A stretch of DNA of 64,000 nucleotides from an uncultured Opitutaceae bacterium (GTDB lineage: Bacteria > Verrucomicrobiota > Verrucomicrobiia > Opitutales > Opitutaceae): the NCBI GenBank assembly GCA_903862935.1, contig CAIOZY010000041.1, positions 1 to 64,000 of the forward strand, written 5' to 3'. Under the pieces are notes generated by a model that saw only the letters and a list, made by a program, of their open reading frames with translations, did no database searches and was not told the DNA's origin. Below are positions 18,789 through 25,296 of this stretch, piece by piece (positions within the stretch are counted from its first letter, which is position 1; each line of letters opens with the position of its first letter). The translations under genes were made by a program, and so were the position numbers.

Positions 18789-19130
18789 GGTAGGGAAGGG
18801 GATATAAGCTCGGGAATATGGGGTGCGTCCGCCCCGTCGCGCGAGTCTATTCTCTGCCCGGGTCGCGTCGTTAAGCTGGACTAATCCGAGCTGACGGCTG
18901 CATTATGTAATTCCTAAAGCTGGTCAGGGCGATGTTTTTGTCCGGAAGATCGGCAGGATTACGGATCGTATAAACCATTTACGTCCAAGATACTTAATAA
19001 AGGCGATGGCGGGTTCTCCGTCTTCGATTGTCATAAATGGTTAGAGTTGAAATCCAGTTCACCATTGCCGTTTTCCCGATTCGCTGGCGCGACGTATTCC
19101 GGGCTGGTCGCCGACGCGCCGCGTTCCCCA
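18789..19130. other. Intergenic region between hppA and the ECF sigma gene
   Basis: This 342-bp divergent region must hold promoters for hppA and the sigma-factor operon. From about 18895 to 19045 it is clearly AT-richer than its flanks. TAAACCATTTA (18971-18981) is repeated in inverted orientation as TAAATGGTTA (19034-19043), with about 52 bp between. No convincing promoter boxes were found. Confidence 0.5.
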
Positions 19131-19640
19131 ATGCCTGAAGACCCCGCCGATCGCCGGGATTTTTCCACCCTTTACCGGGCGACCCTGGCGCCGTTGCGCC
19201 GGTACCTCGCGCGACTGCTCGGAAACGTCACCGAGGCGCAGGATGTGGCGCACGACGCCTACCTGCGGGTGTATCCCACGCTCAGCCAGCAGGCCGCGCG
19301 TCGGCCGGAGGCACTGCTGTTCGTCACAGCCCGCCGGCTCGCCATCAACCGGCTCAAGCGCCGCGACATCTCGCCCTTCGCCCGCGAGGCGATGGACCCC
19401 GAAGCGGCCTCCTCCGCGCCCGGCGTCGAGCAGGAGGTGATGGCGCGCCAGGAACTGCGGCTGTTGGACCAGGCCATCACGGAACTCCCGGAGGGCTGCC
19501 GCGCCGTCCTGCTCCTGCGCAAGGTGGAGATGCTCTCCCACCGCGAAATCGCCGACCGCCTCGGCATCGCGATCAGCACGGTTGAAAAACAGCACGCCCG
19601 CGCCTTGCGGCTATTGCGGACGGCCCTCGCCGAATCATGA
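19131..19640 (+). CDS. ECF RNA polymerase sigma factor (FecI-like)
   Basis: The 169-residue protein has sigma region 2 (about 20-85; DVAHDAYLRVY and PEALLFVTARRLAINRLKRR) and region 4 (about 115-165; LPEGCRAVLLLRKVEMLSHREIADRLG, a helix-turn-helix). It would direct polymerase to genes of its own surface-signalling system. It overlaps fecR by ATGA, with the TonB receptor next, the standard FecI-FecR-FecA order. The frame is open from a TTG at 19047, but the ATG at 19131 gives a normal N-terminus. It is probably held inactive or made active by FecR on receptor signalling. Confidence 0.9.
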   Translation: MPEDPADRRDFSTLYRATLAPLRRYLARLLGNVTEAQDVAHDAYLRVYPTLSQQAARRPEALLFVTARRLAINRLKRRDISPFAREAMDPEAASSAPGVEQEVMARQELRLLDQAITELPEGCRAVLLLRKVEMLSHREIADRLGIAISTVEKQHARALRLLRTALAES

Positions 19641-20629
19641 ACGCTTCCCTTCCCCCTCGCGACGCGACCGCCCAGGAGAAGGCGGCGTTCTGGGCCGCAC
19701 GGCTCGACGGCTCCGCGTTGGAGGAAGCCGATTGGGCGGAGCTCGACGCCTGGCTCGCCGAGGCCCCCGCGCACAGGGCCCTCCTTTCGCGCTACTGCGA
19801 ACTTTCCGCCGCGCTCGAGGCGCGGCTGCCCGCGCTGGTGTCGGCCGGAGCCGTGGCCATGCCGACGCCGCGGGCGTCTCCCTCTCCCCTTTGGCGGCGG
19901 CGGACGGTCCTCGGCGTTGGGGCGGCGGCCGCCGCCGTGTTGGCCCTCGGCGTCTGGCTGGCCCGGCCGAGGCTGCAGGTCGAGGACATCGTCACGCCGG
20001 CGGGCCAGCGCCAGTCGCTAACGCTGGCCGACGGCACCCGCCTCGAGCTCAGCGCCCGGACCCGCTTCCGCATCGAGAACAGCAGGACGGAGCGGCGCAT
20101 GCGGCTGGCCGAAGGGGAGGTCTATCTGCAGGTGGCCAAGGACCAGAGCCGCCCCTTCACCGTGGAGACTCCGGCCGGATCGGTGGAGGTGACCGGCACG
20201 GTCTTTGACGTGCGCACCGAGGCGGCGGGCGAACTCGACGTGACGGTCTTGGCTGGCTCGGTGCAGGTGCGGCCCGCGGAAGGGGACGGCGCGCCGGCGG
20301 CGTTGGGCGCCGGCGACCAGCTCTGTGCCCGGGCAGGCCGGGTGACGGTGCATCCGCTTTCCGCCGGCGAACTCGACGACACCCTCGCCTGGCGGCATGG
20401 GAAAGTCGTGTTTCGCGGCGTTCCCCTGCGGGAAGCCCTCGCCCGCCTTGCCTACTACCATGGCCTGGATATCACGGCCAAGGCCGGAGCGGCGGACCTG
20501 CGGCTGGGCGGGGCCTTCAGCCTCGACGACCTCGACGGATTCTTTGCGGCGTTGGAGGAGGTGCTGCCGGTGCGCGTGGCGCGAGGCTCTGCCGGGGGGG
20601 CGCAGGTCAGCCTGCGCTCCGATCGGTAA
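19637..20629 (+). CDS. FecR family anti-sigma/signal transducer
   Basis: The 330-residue protein has a DUF4880-type N-terminal cytoplasmic segment (about 12-55; FWAARLDGSALEEADWAELDAWL), one membrane helix near 92-112 and a periplasmic FecR domain with QRQSLTLADGTRLELSA and FTVETPAGSVEVTGTVFDV. A C-terminal STN-like tail follows (about 270-330). FecR relays receptor occupancy across the inner membrane to the ECF sigma factor. It overlaps the sigma gene by 4 nt and ends 12 bp before the receptor gene. Confidence 0.92.
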   Translation: MNASLPPRDATAQEKAAFWAARLDGSALEEADWAELDAWLAEAPAHRALLSRYCELSAALEARLPALVSAGAVAMPTPRASPSPLWRRRTVLGVGAAAAAVLALGVWLARPRLQVEDIVTPAGQRQSLTLADGTRLELSARTRFRIENSRTERRMRLAEGEVYLQVAKDQSRPFTVETPAGSVEVTGTVFDVRTEAAGELDVTVLAGSVQVRPAEGDGAPAALGAGDQLCARAGRVTVHPLSAGELDDTLAWRHGKVVFRGVPLREALARLAYYHGLDITAKAGAADLRLGGAFSLDDLDGFFAALEEVLPVRVARGSAGGAQVSLRSDR

Positions 20630-20641
20630 CGTTTTTTCGCC

Positions 20642-23600
20642 GTGCGGGCGATTCGAAGTCTCCTCTGGCTCGCCTTCCTCGTCGCGGGCGGGCTGGCGGC
20701 GGAAGCGGGCGCGGCACCGGTGGATTTTGACCTGCCGGCGCAGCCGGCCGACCAGGCCCTGCTCGCTTTCTCCCGGCAGTCGGCCGAGGAGGTGCTCTTT
20801 TCCTACGACGACCTGCACTGGGTTCGCTCTACGGCGGTCCTCGGCCGGCATGAGCCGGAGGCGGCGCTTGAGCTCCTGCTGCAGGGGACCGGATTTGCCG
20901 CCCGTCGCAACCACCGCGAGAAATTCGTGGTGGCCCGGGCGCCGACGCCCCTCCGGTCGGCTCCGGCAGAGGCGTCCCAGGCCGAGGCGAGCGAGCCGAT
21001 CCGGCTGGATCCGGTGATCGTCGAGGATCAGGCGGAGCGGCAGCGACGCTCCGACCGGGACCGCAGCCTGGTCGGGGACCTGGCGGCCGGAGGCAACCTC
21101 GATCTGCCCCGCACCGAGGACGACGTCCTGCCCTTCACGATCTATCACCGCGACCAGATCGTGCGCAGCGGAGTCGTGGACCTGAACCAGTACCTGCAGC
21201 GCGAGCTGCTGGAGAGCGCCGCGGCCACTCCGGTTCCGTCGGGCAACAGTCTGCGCCAGTTCCTGTTCGCGGGCGCCAAGAACCTGAATTTGCGCGGCTA
21301 CGGCAACGACGAGACGGTGATTCTCGTCAACGGTCGGCGCCTGCCGAACGTGGTGATCATGAACGCGGACCCGACGCAGACCGCGCCGGACGTGAGCCTA
21401 ATCCCCCTGAGCCTGGTGGAGCGGATCGAGGTGATGCCGATCTCCGCCTCGGCCCTTTACAGCGGCAATCCCGTGGGGGGCGTCATCAATATCGTGCTTC
21501 GGTCCGGCCTGCCGGCGCACACGCGGGCGACCGCCCAGATGACCGAGGTGACTTCGACCTACGCCAACGCCCTGCGCGGTTTCGACGCTCCCCAATCCAC
21601 GATTTCGTTCCTGCACGGGGAATCCCTCCTCGGCGGTGCCCTGCACCTGCGCTTGAGCGCGAGCTTCACGCAGGCGATGCCGCCGACGGAGACCGAGCTG
21701 CGCTTTCACCAGGCGAGGAGACTGCCCGCCGCGGACCTCACGGCTCCCGTCTACGGAGCCACGCCCAATATCCGCTCGGCCGACGGTCTGCCCCTATTTG
21801 GTCCGGGCACCTCGTCGGTGACCTCGGTGGCGCCCGGGACGGACGGCTCCGGGGGCTTGGGTCTGTTCCTGGGTCGCCAAGGGGTTCTCGACCAGGCGCT
21901 GTACCACCTCCCGGGAGGATGGTCCACGTCGCCCGACAGCCGGGACTATGCCTACGGCCAAAGGCTGAGGCGCGCGGTTTACTACGGGGCGGCCGATTAC
22001 ACCGTCTCGCCCCGCCTGCACCTCGGTCTCGACGGCAGCTACGCCCGCACCGTGGTGAACCCGGGCTATGATATCCTGACGGCGGACCTGGCACTCGGCG
22101 CGGACTCGCCGCTCAATCCTTTCGGTCGCGACGTCCGGGTCGCCGTGAACGAGGCCGCGCCGCAGCTCGGCCCTGGGTACGGCGAAGCGCAAATCGAATT
22201 TTATTCGGGGATCTTGGGCGCGGTTCTCAAGCTGCCCGGGGATTGGCGGCTGGATCTCGACGGGCAGCTCGACCACAGCCTGGCCAAATACCGCGGGTTG
22301 GTCGGCGCCGATCCAGGCCGCTGGCAGCAGCTGGTCGACCAGGGACTCTACAATCCCCTGCGCGACACGCAGCGCTTCGCCCCTCCGGCCGCCTTTTACG
22401 ACCGGGTGCTGATCTATGAGGGAGGTCGGGGCCGTTTCGCGACTGTCGGTAACTACAACACGTTGGACCTTGCGGTGCGGGCGACCAATCCAACGTTGTC
22501 GTTGCCGATGGGCTCCGGTACAGTGAACCTCGGGGGCGACTACCGGCGCGATCGTTTCGACGACTTGGCGGAGGAGCCGGTTTATGGCGACGGCTCTCCG
22601 GCGGAGGACCCGATTCGCTGGAGGGGGCGGACGCTCCAGGCCTACAGCGCCTTTGGCGAGTTGCAGGCGCCGCTCGTGCCGAGCCGCCTGCTCCCTGCCT
22701 GGCTGCGACAGGCCGACGTCGACCTCGCTGCCCGTTACGACGCCGACAGCTCGCGGGAATCCAACCTGGCCCCGACCTTTGGGCTGAGGCTCGGCTTGCC
22801 GGCGGGCTTCACGCTGCGGGGCAGCGCCACCACCTCGACCCGCTACCCCACGCCCATCCTGAGCCGGCAGGCCTCGTCCGGAACCATGGTGCCGGGCGGG
22901 GGGCCCAGCGTGGCCTACGTCTTCGATCCGCTGCGCAACCAGAACTACGATGTCGCCTACACCGACGTCATCAATCCGGTCCTGCGGGCGGAGGGGACGG
23001 TGACGGAGGCGGCCGGGGTGATTTTCGAGCAGGGCCACGTCCATCGCCTCCGGCTGGCCCTGGATTTTGCCGACACGCGGAAGAACAACGAGGCGCAATA
23101 TCTCGACGCGGGGACGGTCGTGGAGCTCGAGTCGCTCTTGCCCGGCCGGGTGACGCGCTCTCCGCCGGCGCCCGGCGACACGCACGCCGTGGGGCCGGTG
23201 ACCTCAGTCCTCACCGGGGCGGCCAATTTTTACCTCCGCCATTCGCGAAACTGGAACGCCTCCCTGGAGTACACCTGGACTGACTGCGCGGGGGGCACTC
23301 TCGAACTGTACGGACGCCTGGTTTACTTCACGCGCTACGACCGCCAGATCCTGTCGACCTCCCCGATGGTCGACGAGCTGCGCCATCCCGACAACTCGGC
23401 CCCCGACCTCCTCAAATGCCGCGTCAACTTCGGCGCGGGCTGGTCTGACCAGGCGGCCGGGTTCGGCGTGGACGGCCACTATTTCGGCTCGCGCGTCCTG
23501 CCGGCCGTCGAATGGGCGAGCCAAGGCGCCGACCGGATCGCCTCGTTCTGGCAGTTCGACGCCTACCTGCAGAAGGATTTCAGCCGGTGGCTGCCGGGGA

Positions 23601-23758
23601 AGAATCCCCGCTGCGGCCTGCGGGGCCAGGCGAGGGTCAACAATGTATTTGGCGCCGATTTTCCATTTTTTGCCAACGATCAGTCCGGGGCCGGGGTGCA
23701 ACCCTATGGCGACTGGCGCGGCCGCACGTATTCGCTTTCTATTACGGTCACGTTCTGA
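20642..23758 (+). CDS. TonB-dependent receptor with N-terminal STN signalling domain
   Basis: The 1038-residue outer-membrane receptor starts at a GTG and has a signal peptide (about 1-25). An STN domain (about 28-95) contacts FecR, and a TonB-box-like DPVIV lies near 122. The plug (about 155-285) contains NLNLRGYGNDETVILVNGRRLP and SASALYSGNPVGGVINIVLR. A 22-strand barrel ends in YSLSITVTF with the C-terminal Phe. The STN domain plus upstream sigma/FecR genes mark it as a transducer that both imports and signals its ligand. The ligand may be a siderophore, a glycan or another compound. The linkage to a carrier protein and methyltransferase downstream is unusual. Confidence 0.92.
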   Translation: MRAIRSLLWLAFLVAGGLAAEAGAAPVDFDLPAQPADQALLAFSRQSAEEVLFSYDDLHWVRSTAVLGRHEPEAALELLLQGTGFAARRNHREKFVVARAPTPLRSAPAEASQAEASEPIRLDPVIVEDQAERQRRSDRDRSLVGDLAAGGNLDLPRTEDDVLPFTIYHRDQIVRSGVVDLNQYLQRELLESAAATPVPSGNSLRQFLFAGAKNLNLRGYGNDETVILVNGRRLPNVVIMNADPTQTAPDVSLIPLSLVERIEVMPISASALYSGNPVGGVINIVLRSGLPAHTRATAQMTEVTSTYANALRGFDAPQSTISFLHGESLLGGALHLRLSASFTQAMPPTETELRFHQARRLPAADLTAPVYGATPNIRSADGLPLFGPGTSSVTSVAPGTDGSGGLGLFLGRQGVLDQALYHLPGGWSTSPDSRDYAYGQRLRRAVYYGAADYTVSPRLHLGLDGSYARTVVNPGYDILTADLALGADSPLNPFGRDVRVAVNEAAPQLGPGYGEAQIEFYSGILGAVLKLPGDWRLDLDGQLDHSLAKYRGLVGADPGRWQQLVDQGLYNPLRDTQRFAPPAAFYDRVLIYEGGRGRFATVGNYNTLDLAVRATNPTLSLPMGSGTVNLGGDYRRDRFDDLAEEPVYGDGSPAEDPIRWRGRTLQAYSAFGELQAPLVPSRLLPAWLRQADVDLAARYDADSSRESNLAPTFGLRLGLPAGFTLRGSATTSTRYPTPILSRQASSGTMVPGGGPSVAYVFDPLRNQNYDVAYTDVINPVLRAEGTVTEAAGVIFEQGHVHRLRLALDFADTRKNNEAQYLDAGTVVELESLLPGRVTRSPPAPGDTHAVGPVTSVLTGAANFYLRHSRNWNASLEYTWTDCAGGTLELYGRLVYFTRYDRQILSTSPMVDELRHPDNSAPDLLKCRVNFGAGWSDQAAGFGVDGHYFGSRVLPAVEWASQGADRIASFWQFDAYLQKDFSRWLPGKNPRCGLRGQARVNNVFGADFPFFANDQSGAGVQPYGDWRGRTYSLSITVTF

Positions 23759-23817
23759 GTGGGGACGCGAGAGGGCAGTAGCGGGTTGGCTCTCCTGGAT
23801 TGTCATCTCGGGTAACC

Positions 23818-24231
23818 GTGAACAGTCATTTTGGAGCCATCCGGGTCCCCGCCGTGCCGGTGGACGCGCTTCCGCCCGCGGAGGACGCCCGCTTGCGCGA
23901 GGCGCTGAGGCACTGCTCGTCGGCCACCTACTACGCCGCCTATCAGTTTCACCTCACCGGCGACGCCTCGCGCCTGCCGGCGGTGGTCGACGGAATCATT
24001 GCCCGGTACGTGGAGACCGGCCGCCGGGCGAGCCTCGCAAATCCGGACGGTTCCCTGCGCCTGAGCGAGGATCTCGGCCTCGATTCGCTGACGATGGTCG
24101 AGATCGCGGCCGCGGTGGAGGATGTCCTTGGGGTGTCGCTTGCCGATGACGACCTGTCCCACTTGCGCACACTGGGCGGTGTGCGGGAGCTGATCCGGGG
24201 CAAGGTGCGCGACCAGAGGGCGTCCCCATGA
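23818..24231 (+). CDS. Acyl/peptidyl carrier protein-like protein
   Basis: The 137-residue protein ends in a carrier domain of about 75 residues: RLSEDLGLDSLTMVEIAAAVEDVLG carries the Ser in the DSL motif that would take 4'-phosphopantetheine. The preceding 60 residues (with YYAAYQFHLTG) are an unrecognised extension and are not seen in ordinary AcpP. It overlaps the methyltransferase start by ATGA and follows the TonB receptor by 59 bp. Start choice is uncertain: GTG at 23818 or TTG at 23800. A free-standing carrier next to a methyltransferase suggests a small biosynthetic step, but no synthase or ligase is in reach. Confidence 0.75.
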   Translation: MNSHFGAIRVPAVPVDALPPAEDARLREALRHCSSATYYAAYQFHLTGDASRLPAVVDGIIARYVETGRRASLANPDGSLRLSEDLGLDSLTMVEIAAAVEDVLGVSLADDDLSHLRTLGGVRELIRGKVRDQRASP

Positions 24232-25127
24232 ACCCCGCGATGCCGGCGCTGTTTTCCGGGCCGGTTGCGGACGGGGCCGATGGCGGGCCGCTGGGCGTAA
24301 GGCGGCCGCCATCGTGTCCCGGTCCGATTTCGGCCCGCAGCCGGGCGGAGGGGTTTTCTGAGCGCTTCGCCCGGATTCCGTCCGCCCTGATCCAGAAGGT
24401 CAATGGGGTCGCCTCCGAGGAGGGATTCGTCTACATTGGCGGCAGGATTGCCGACACCATCGGAGGCGCCCTGGGCGGGTTCGCGGGCACGCGGGATGTC
24501 CTCGATTTCGGGTGCGGACTGGGCCGTGTGGCGGCCCGACTGTTTGATCGCGCGCCCGACGCGCGGATAGTCGGCTTCGATATCGACCCGATGATGCTGA
24601 AGTGGGGGGAGGACCTGCTCGCGGGACAGCCCGTCCGATTTGTCGACACCACCCTCGACCTGCCGAACCGTTCCTTCGACCTGGTGATCGCCGTCTCCGT
24701 CTTCACCCACCTGGATGCGACGACGGACTATTGGCTCGCCGAAATCCACCGGCTGCTGCGGCCGGGCGGCCGGGCGTTCCTGACGTATCACGACCAGACC
24801 CTGTTCGGGGAAATGGCCCTGCAAGGCCAGCTTCCCGGCGTCGCATCCGACGGGGCCCTCGCCGATCGGTATGTGCTCGGCCGCGGCACTCCGGAAGGCG
24901 GGGCGGCCATGGGTACCTTCTATACGACGGAGCATTGGGAGAGGCTGCTCGACCGGTGGTTCGTCATTTCCGCCACTGCGGAGCGCGGCATGTTCGGGCA
25001 CCAATCCTACTCCGTCGTGCGGCCCAGGCCCGTCTCGCCGCCCCGCGGCGAACTCCTGCGCCGCTACGCCCGCTCCCTTGAGCGGCACTTGTCCGACCTG
25101 CGGCGGGAGCACGAGATATTCTATTGA
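24228..25127 (+). CDS. Class I SAM-dependent methyltransferase
   Basis: The 299-residue protein shows motif I VLDFGCGLGRVAARL, motif II IVGFDIDPMMLKW and post-motif FDLVIAVSVFTHLD, followed by LRPGGRAFLTYHD. These are the Rossmann methyltransferase landmarks. The acceptor is not recognisable. It overlaps the carrier-protein gene by 4 nt, so co-translation is likely and the acceptor may be carrier-bound; this is inference. About 60 N-terminal residues before the fold are unassigned. It is the last gene of the cluster, about 80 bp before tRNA-Leu. Confidence 0.85.
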   Translation: MNPAMPALFSGPVADGADGGPLGVRRPPSCPGPISARSRAEGFSERFARIPSALIQKVNGVASEEGFVYIGGRIADTIGGALGGFAGTRDVLDFGCGLGRVAARLFDRAPDARIVGFDIDPMMLKWGEDLLAGQPVRFVDTTLDLPNRSFDLVIAVSVFTHLDATTDYWLAEIHRLLRPGGRAFLTYHDQTLFGEMALQGQLPGVASDGALADRYVLGRGTPEGGAAMGTFYTTEHWERLLDRWFVISATAERGMFGHQSYSVVRPRPVSPPRGELLRRYARSLERHLSDLRREHEIFY

Positions 25128-25210
25128 GTACGCCCGTCCGCCCATCCGCTTATCCGGACATTCGGCTGGATTCGACCGCTGCCCCGTCTTTAATGAGAGG
25201 GTCGCTGCAC

Positions 25211-25296
25211 GCCCGGGTGGTGGAATGGTAGACACTAGGGACTTAAAATCCCTTGGCTGTAAGGCCGTGCGGGTTCGAGCCCCGCCCCGGGCACCA
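25211..25296 (+). tRNA. tRNA-Leu (UAA anticodon)
   Basis: The 86-base gene has an acceptor stem GCCCGGG/CCCGGGC, an anticodon stem AGGGA/TCCCT around CTTAAAA (anticodon TAA), a long variable arm typical of class II tRNAs, a T arm GCGGG-TTCGAGC-CCCGC, and an encoded CCA at 25294-25296. The encoded CCA is notable beside a CCA-adding enzyme that could repair it. Confidence 0.96.

Follow-up and report, generated by a model that had tools for sequence, protein, structure and literature searches.

Organisation of the locus

The window analysed, a stretch of 64,000 nucleotides from the genome of an uncultured Opitutaceae bacterium (contig CAIOZY010000041.1), contains five genes that run in the same direction, two copies of a promoter-like site and a tRNA gene:

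19007..19032, + strand: ECF-type promoter-like site, copy 1 (predicted), TGGCGGGTT-N12-TTGTC, 5' of the sigma gene
19131..19640, + strand: ECF sigma factor, FecI-like, 169 aa (Pfam and NCBIfam profiles)
19637..20629, + strand: FecR-like anti-sigma factor, 330 aa (Pfam FecR, DUF4880)
20642..23758, + strand: TonB-dependent receptor, 1038 aa, with signalling (STN-type) domain, plug and barrel; GTG start
23779..23804, + strand: ECF-type promoter-like site, copy 2 (predicted), TAGCGGGTT-N12-TTGTC, in the receptor-carrier gap
23818..24231, + strand: stand-alone acyl carrier protein, 137 aa (PP-binding); GTG start
24228..25127, + strand: class I SAM-dependent methyltransferase, 299 aa (Methyltransf_11)
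25211-25296: tRNA-Leu, downstream of the methyltransferase gene

The coordinates, overlaps and gaps of the five genes reported in the initial annotation were confirmed, as were their families by profile search (sigma factor, FecR, TonB plug, PP-binding and class I SAM methyltransferase). The sigma and fecR genes overlap by ATGA, and so do the carrier and methyltransferase genes; 12 bp separate fecR from the receptor gene, and 59 bp separate the receptor gene from that of the carrier. This last gap is no mere spacer: the second copy of the motif, missed in the initial annotation, sits in it.

The surface-signalling components

The sigma factor matches Sigma70_r2 and Sigma70 r4_2 above the Pfam cut-off and the NCBIfam sigma70-ECF model above its own, with the FecI models scoring under theirs, and it is 60–78% identical to its counterparts at related loci. 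The FecR-like protein scores above the cut-off for both Pfam FecR (82.3 bits) and the N-terminal DUF4880 (28.7 bits), and has one apparent membrane helix, read from the sequence by eye. In the receptor, the TonB plug domain exceeds the Pfam cut-off and STN falls under it (14.7 vs 28.4 bits); residues 29–90 nevertheless resemble the solved signalling domain of a ferric-pseudobactin receptor (E 4.5e-9), and in the AlphaFold2 model (mean pLDDT 75) the blocks between residues 31 and 90 reach pLDDT values of 82–91. The best PDB matches in a fold search with this model are siderophore receptors, FpvA among them, at 10–15% identity. The locus thus contains the three elements of FecIRA-type signalling: an ECF sigma factor, an FecR-type anti-sigma factor and a receptor with an N-terminal signalling domain. 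Searches of Pfam, NCBIfam and the PDB, by sequence and by fold, returned general, mostly siderophore-type receptors only, and did not reveal the ligand.

The FecI-FecR-FecA system of Escherichia coli is likewise built from an ECF sigma factor, an FecR-type anti-sigma factor and a TonB-dependent receptor with a signalling domain. There, fecIR is made by sigma-70 and is not autoregulated, and FecI drives the fecA promoter (PMC9249621). Unlike in E. coli, the motif found here stands before the sigma gene and not before the receptor gene, with its second copy before the carrier gene.

A promoter-like motif specific to receptor-bearing genomes

In its strict form the motif, found 5' of the sigma gene and in the 59-bp gap, reads TRGCGGRTT-N12-YTGTC. 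The 3.35-Mb genome of the organism has exactly two matches to it, upstream of the sigma and carrier genes, and none to the reversed pattern. When one mismatch is allowed the same genome yields 20 sites against 11 in the control, so the looser sites in it are mostly background. Receptor orthologues occur in 78 of the 252 family genomes, and these hold 163 strict sites against 10 for the reversed-pattern control, although 15 of them have none; an equal number of family genomes without the receptor, hand-picked from 174 and mostly more complete assemblies, hold 21 against 20. Two sites in G028 and one in G143, both from the receptor-less set, resemble true ones, and in genomes of this type the signalling system may be absent through incomplete assembly.

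At related loci, a loose form of the motif lies upstream of the sigma gene in 46 of 50 cases, window included (it is missing from the other four), upstream of the carrier gene in 29 of 36, upstream of fecR in 0 of 55 and upstream of the receptor gene in 1 of 58; the shuffle control for this form permuted two-base blocks and is not a true dinucleotide shuffle. Among the seven carrier regions that lack it within the stretch searched, two (L066 and L075) have it farther upstream, at the head of the unit. The motif also heads the unit in G067 and G129, in which the carrier is preceded by a methyltransferase or by a secreted protein plus a methyltransferase, and in G111 (L152) it accompanies a carrier gene distant from the receptor. 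In the window, the GTG start of the carrier gene lies only 13 bases past the TTGTC element of copy 2, which may mean a true start farther downstream or an almost leaderless mRNA.

Because the motif is specific to receptor-bearing genomes and is found at both upstream regions, the most likely arrangement is that of two transcription units, sigma-fecR-receptor and carrier-methyltransferase, in one ECF-sigma regulon; that both units share a regulon is highly probable. The motif might instead be the site of another regulator, the carrier being merely a co-regulated neighbour. Consistent with this, the motif was not found in the portions of the literature searched, and, since the presence of the sigma factor and that of the receptor are inseparable in these genomes, another gene of the same distribution could be responsible. 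The -10 elements of ECF promoters, however, often hold GTC, and the motif has two blocks at a fixed spacing of 12 bases with a GTC-type second element, sits before gene starts and depends on the presence of the receptor system, all of which makes a different regulator improbable.

Conservation of the linkage

Of the 78 genomes with the receptor, 72 contributed receptor loci (all but G115, G139, G146, G181, G251 and G261). Among the 70 loci that were assessable, 38, from 14 genera, have a carrier homologue downstream of the orthologous receptor and 32 do not. Opitutaceae bacterium EW11 (L206), apparently an isolate, is among the strains with the locus. Judged from gene order, the linkage goes beyond chance for every gene of the five except the methyltransferase. 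The initial annotation had tied both the carrier and the methyltransferase to the receptor; for the carrier this holds, and its link to the receptor is real by gene order and by the shared motif, whereas the methyltransferase is not conserved there.

The methyltransferase matches Methyltransf_11 (63.9 bits) from residue 92 onwards, behind some 85 additional residues at the N-terminus. Among 57 genomes, matches at E ≤ 1e-20 were limited to the organism itself, G008 and G025, and in the latter two they lie on contigs other than that of the receptor locus; no orthologue was found at this position in the relatives searched. In two other genera a different methyltransferase adjoins the carrier. The notion that carrier and methyltransferase travel together was considered and rejected, the enzymes of G067 and G129 matching that of the window over no more than about 100 residues of the SAM core, at 35–37%.

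With regard to genomic position, the whole locus sits in the window between tRNA-Leu and a pyrophosphatase gene. A tRNA search found the same tRNA-Leu(taa) upstream of the pyrophosphatase gene in eight of 11 stretches from genus-mates; of the other three, the G002 stretch is without it and two end at contig ends. The distance between the two genes is 0.28 kb in G010, a genome without a receptor match, and about 1.1–6 kb in the others. Beyond the tRNA, no right flank is common to the window and the genus-mate stretches compared. An insertion of the locus beside tRNA-Leu is supported by this arrangement.

The carrier and its relation to an ACP-FabZ fusion

The carrier matches PP-binding (PF00550) at 34.7 bits, with a cut-off of 20.8; its D89-S90-L91 is invariant, and the attachment serine, Ser90, is kept in all 36 aligned rows. 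The AlphaFold2 model (mean pLDDT 90) shows extra N-terminal helices at residues 20–29 and 35–47, so that profile, alignment and model agree on an ACP fold with its attachment serine. No enzyme to load the carrier is encoded adjacent to it; an ACPS-family phosphopantetheinyl transferase is encoded elsewhere in the genome (G000:C33).

Searches of relatives with the carrier returned mainly an ACP-FabZ fusion, from which the stand-alone class was separated by frame lengths and neighbours. The two have the extended ACP domain in common, at 47–57% identity in the loci compared; the fusion, unlike the carrier, is joined to a dehydratase and occurs with or without the receptor system. This resemblance makes the carrier a free-standing paralogue of the fusion's ACP domain; its 60-residue extension is found in that domain too and so is not peculiar to the carrier. 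The fusion is encoded with a ketosynthase, an SDR reductase and an MGDG-synthase-like glycosyltransferase. In G003 a copy of the motif begins 80 bp ahead of the ACP-FabZ/ketosynthase cluster. As a general regulator of this cluster the motif was rejected: only that one locus of 21 has it (21 distinct loci from 24 rows, three of which repeat a genome; L150 is the same place as L014), and co-regulation with the core ACP-FabZ pathway is therefore not general.

The carrier shares with AcpM and ordinary type II ACPs the PP-binding fold, the DSL motif and the helical core, and differs from them in its two ordered extra N-terminal helices, which no PDB chain covered in the profile search (matches start at profile position 44 at the earliest, about residue 49). 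By analogy, it could serve a membrane protein, for example a membrane glycosyltransferase, as a structural or regulatory subunit instead of acting as a metabolic carrier: AcpM is reportedly a subunit of mycobacterial arabinosyltransferases, as in a study of EmbB2-AcpM2. By sequence, its nearest PDB chains are indeed AcpM, several from complexes with EmbA/EmbB or MmpL5, and proteins weakly like arabinofuranosyltransferases are motif targets in three relatives (one searched, two by homology). The AcpM match, however, spans the ACP core only, all ACPs resemble one another, and in the organism's own genome the strict motif is limited to the sites of the sigma and carrier genes; a subunit role is accordingly unlikely.

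Other targets of the motif and the possible product of the pathway

Away from the receptor loci, 40 extra sites were hand-picked in relatives among the non-receptor matches listed, roughly in listing order. For 27 of them, a figure that stands without a control, a called gene starts 35–290 bp downstream on the same strand; the other 13 have no gene start in that range. Gene calls came from a simple custom caller that mis-called some antisense frames (L032, L064). By the author's own classing, 11 of these 27 genes encode secreted or surface proteins and eight are glycan genes, the labels epimerase, glycosyltransferase and secreted having been given partly by reading the sequence or by BLAST to labelled genes. 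In relatives, then, the motif precedes genes for secreted repeat proteins and for glycans.

These targets bear on the initial proposal that all five genes form one operon in which the molecule imported by the receptor, a small one, is produced or completed by the carrier and methyltransferase, as the last steps of its synthesis. The genes are on the same strand with short gaps, and read-through over the 59 bp is possible; a simple scan found no terminator-like site there. Against this, a copy of the sigma promoter-like motif lies in the gap itself, the methyltransferase of the window did not turn up at the other loci, and there is no synthase or ligase among the five genes. A single operon is thus probably the wrong reading of the sequence, and one that makes the ligand is unlikely. 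Given that the motif in relatives precedes secreted proteins and glycan genes, a change in the envelope fits better than tailoring of a ligand.

Under the two-unit arrangement, binding of a ligand to the TonB-dependent receptor would be signalled through the N-terminal domain to FecR, and the sigma factor, freed as a result, would transcribe its own sigma-fecR-receptor operon and, from the second promoter copy, the carrier gene, together with the methyltransferase gene in this species. The carrier, an ACP-domain paralogue that can be induced, would most likely feed or divert acyl chains in the ACP-FabZ pathway so as to alter an envelope lipid or glycan; the methyltransferase could add a species-specific modification. 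That the regulon has the carrier as a true effector is probable; that the carrier acts in the ketosynthase/dehydratase/reductase/glycosyltransferase pathway is put forward tentatively.

Significance

Sigma factors of surface signalling have been known chiefly as inducers of nutrient receptors. An output other than iron uptake has a parallel in the PUMA3 system (VreA-VreI-VreR) of Pseudomonas aeruginosa, whose regulon consists of secretion systems and exoproteins (PMC2729926). It differs in that VreA is small and mostly periplasmic, and the sections consulted do not mention a carrier protein (PMC2729926). No carrier protein in a surface-signalling regulon was found in the parts of the literature searched, which included PMC13088901, PMC9249621 and PMC2729926. 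The second output proposed here is, in 14 genera, a carrier without a conserved adjacent enzyme, and the short, specific promoter-like word allows the regulon to be read across the genomes of the family.

On the best reading, a carrier dedicated to envelope chemistry is induced by surface signalling. In the Opitutaceae, the main conserved output of such signalling may perhaps be a carrier capped by two helices, swapped into an envelope lipid or glycolipid pathway when an outside compound or the cell's own surface polymer is sensed, in coordination with adhesin-like secreted proteins and enzymes for surface glycans that belong to the same regulon. If true, outer-membrane sensing would be linked to lipid or glycan chemistry, beyond nutrient uptake.

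Two promoter-like words in one locus

The genome that holds the window (contig C41; 3.35 Mb, completeness 95.6%) carries the five genes as the initial annotation described them, and re-reading the window sequence reproduced both ATGA overlaps and the gaps of 12 and 59 bp. When the upstream regions were compared, a two-block word was found ahead of both the sigma and the carrier genes. The locus reads as follows:

19007-19032: first copy of the word, TGGCGGGTT-N12-TTGTC, before the sigma gene
19131-19640, + strand: ECF sigma factor
19637-20629, + strand: FecR protein with DUF4880
20642-23758, + strand: TonB receptor
23779-23804: second copy of the word, TAGCGGGTT-N12-TTGTC, before the carrier gene
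23818-24231, + strand: PP-binding carrier (a stand-alone acyl carrier protein)
24228-25127, + strand: class I methyltransferase
tRNA-Leu: starts 83 bp past the end of the methyltransferase gene

The strict form of the word (TRGCGGRTT-N12-YTGTC) occurs in this genome at those two places only, and the reversed pattern used as control does not occur at all. Allowing one mismatch adds 18 further places, against 11 in total for the reversed pattern, and these sites are therefore mostly background. The genome has two more FecR-domain genes (contig C31, 17349-17597, and contig C1, 7522-7767); given the total of two sites, the strict word is absent near both. The word is a predicted promoter for the ECF sigma factor. 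Since the carrier unit bears a copy of its own, a single five-gene operon, as proposed initially, is not the best reading.

At the carrier gene the distance from TTGTC to the GTG start (window 23804-23818) is only 13 bases, and comparably short in several relatives, which hints at a nearly leaderless mRNA or at a start further downstream.

Distribution of the receptor and linkage of the carrier

A receptor orthologue (E <= 1e-100) was found in 78 of 252 family genomes, in 21 of 49 genera. Among 76 loci from named genomes in the receptor alignment, close relatives carry the titles Opitutaceae, Opitutae/Opitutia, Opitutus, Lacunisphaera and the like, or plainly Verrucomicrobia or bacterium; the few with different titles (Croceibacterium, a gammaproteobacterium and two cyanobacteria) have an identity of 25-26%. 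Receptor loci were taken from 72 of the 78 genomes, giving 75 with the window, and five of these stop less than 500 bp past the receptor, which leaves 70 assessable. The search for homologous clusters upheld the link between carrier and receptor, with a carrier homologue downstream in 38 of the 70 loci, spanning 14 genera by the labels of the receptor survey, and none in 32; conservation did not extend to the methyltransferase. The carrier match starts 37-497 bp past the receptor match in 34 of the 38 loci, and 0.9-3.1 kb past it, with intervening genes, in the other four. Within the genus of the window the receptor is present in 10 of 13 genomes, nine of which also show the carrier; in the tenth (G008) the locus is broken off by the contig end. 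Eighteen of the 32 carrier-less loci group in one part of the receptor tree (quick method, SH-aLRT only), and a putative sugar epimerase gene, by our own reading, lies downstream in 15 of the carrier-less loci; the 38 carrier-bearing loci have none there.

A methyltransferase match at E <= 1e-20 was confined, among 57 genomes searched, to the window's own genome, G008 and G025, in the last two of which it is located elsewhere (34-35% identity). This enzyme is best seen as accessory.

The receptor of the window is some 60-80 residues shorter than most of its relatives: past about residue 100 it lacks a stretch, between signalling domain and plug, that we take to be possibly a carboxypeptidase-regulatory-like domain. 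In one relative (G069), contig C563 has at its end a sigma-fecR-receptor set with a motif of its own (locus L138), and another receptor fragment is on contig C644; these are either two copies or a single copy divided over two contigs.

The genomic site beside tRNA-Leu

The whole locus occupies the space that separates a pyrophosphatase gene from tRNA-Leu(taa) (window 18789-25296). In eight of 11 genus-mate stretches this tRNA is likewise found upstream of the gene for the pyrophosphatase; the distance is 0.28 kb in G010, a genome without a receptor match, and about 1.1-6 kb in the seven others. The site has the appearance of a variable one. In five genus-mates the locus is at another place, adjoining putative sufS and sufU (our own reading), and in the receptor tree the eight genus-mates form a fully supported clade that does not include the window's copy (quick tree, SH-aLRT only). 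These observations point to acquisition or relocation of the locus at the tRNA-side site.

The word across relatives and the genes behind it

At related loci, sigma genes have a loose form of the word ahead of them in 46 of 50 cases and carrier genes in 29 of 36, fecR genes in none of 55 and receptor genes in one of 58; a block-shuffle control gave about 0.1 per set. The 78 receptor-bearing genomes hold 163 strict sites against 10 reversed, with at least one site in 63 of them. In 78 receptor-less family genomes the figures are 21 and 20, in 20 genomes, which is the background level and ties the word to the signalling system. Two relatives, G067 and G129, have a methyltransferase ahead of the carrier, alone or together with a secreted protein, and there the word heads the unit; these two methyltransferases are 64% alike and have just the SAM core in common with the window's enzyme. 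In G111 a carrier gene, with its word, is on a contig separate from the receptor contigs, and there is no carrier within 5.4 kb downstream of the receptor.

From the sites listed, 40 strict sites outside receptor loci were fetched from relatives. A same-strand gene starts 35-290 bp downstream in 27 of them, by our own gene caller and as a figure without a control; we class these genes as 11 secreted or surface, eight glycan, two sigma, one carrier, one ACP-FabZ cluster and four other. Family searches, which covered part of the 27, identified Ig, RCC1, NHL or DUF5122 repeats (L131, L144, L161) and a two-domain glycosyltransferase (L132). L140 is weakly arabinofuranosyltransferase-like, with L143 and L146 homologous to it by BLAST; L135 and its homologue L155, whose strict sites lie in two genera (G066, G112), have heptose-kinase-like and nucleotidyltransferase genes followed by more sugar-related genes. 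A Pfam search gave no match for L137, L140, L145, L147, L160, L163 and L168. The common thread of these other targets is the cell surface; with this theme, and a methyltransferase best seen as accessory, the earlier idea that carrier and methyltransferase finish the receptor's ligand is not the best reading.

The carrier and its ACP-FabZ relative

The carrier has 137 residues, and Ser90, in a DSL motif, is invariant in all 36 aligned stand-alone carriers; a phosphopantetheinyl transferase family member is encoded in the genome. An AlphaFold2 model built from 36 sequences (pLDDT 90) shows an ACP core and, with confidence, two additional helices at residues 20-29 and 35-47. The N-terminal extension is not private to the carrier, as the ACP domain of an ACP-FabZ fusion begins with it too:

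Contig C61 of the same genome, 12747-13730 (L024, 6748-7731): ACP-FabZ fusion, followed by a FabF-like ketosynthase, an SDR and an MGDG-synthase-like glycosyltransferase (families named from the copy in G003)

This cluster recurs in many family genomes and may represent a core pathway for envelope glycolipids; in G003 (L150) it is itself behind the word. A profile of the stand-alone carrier matches in 235 of 252 family genomes and in 28 of 113 drawn from the class, mostly through the longer fusion, as judged by frame length rather than one by one. A second ACP-profile match is present in 63 of 78 genomes with the receptor and 54 of 174 without (hand count over the 252 genomes; Fisher p 2e-13), an association that pools all ACP classes and is uncorrected for kinship or genome size. 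In a tree of 63 ACP domains with several long branches, fused and receptor-linked carriers mostly separate, and the latter form no single clade.

Proposed role of the carrier

Most likely, ligand binding would be relayed by the receptor's signalling domain to FecR, freeing the sigma factor, a step that follows by analogy from known FecIRA systems (PMC9249621). In E. coli, where FecI drives fecA, there is no autoregulation of fecIR; here, in contrast, the word precedes the sigma gene itself and the receptor follows without one of its own. The freed factor would then most likely fire two promoters, that of its own operon and that of the carrier unit. The carrier could in turn change the envelope's acyl or glycolipid chemistry; enzymes of the ACP-FabZ pathway are its probable partners, given that the carrier and the ACP of that pathway are paralogues. 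A rival proposal, drawn by analogy with AcpM, is that it would instead be a subunit of a membrane glycosyltransferase. Surface-signalling systems can serve functions besides iron uptake, as PUMA3 shows (PMC2729926). The carrier is probably a second output, and a conserved one, of such a regulon under surface-signalling control.
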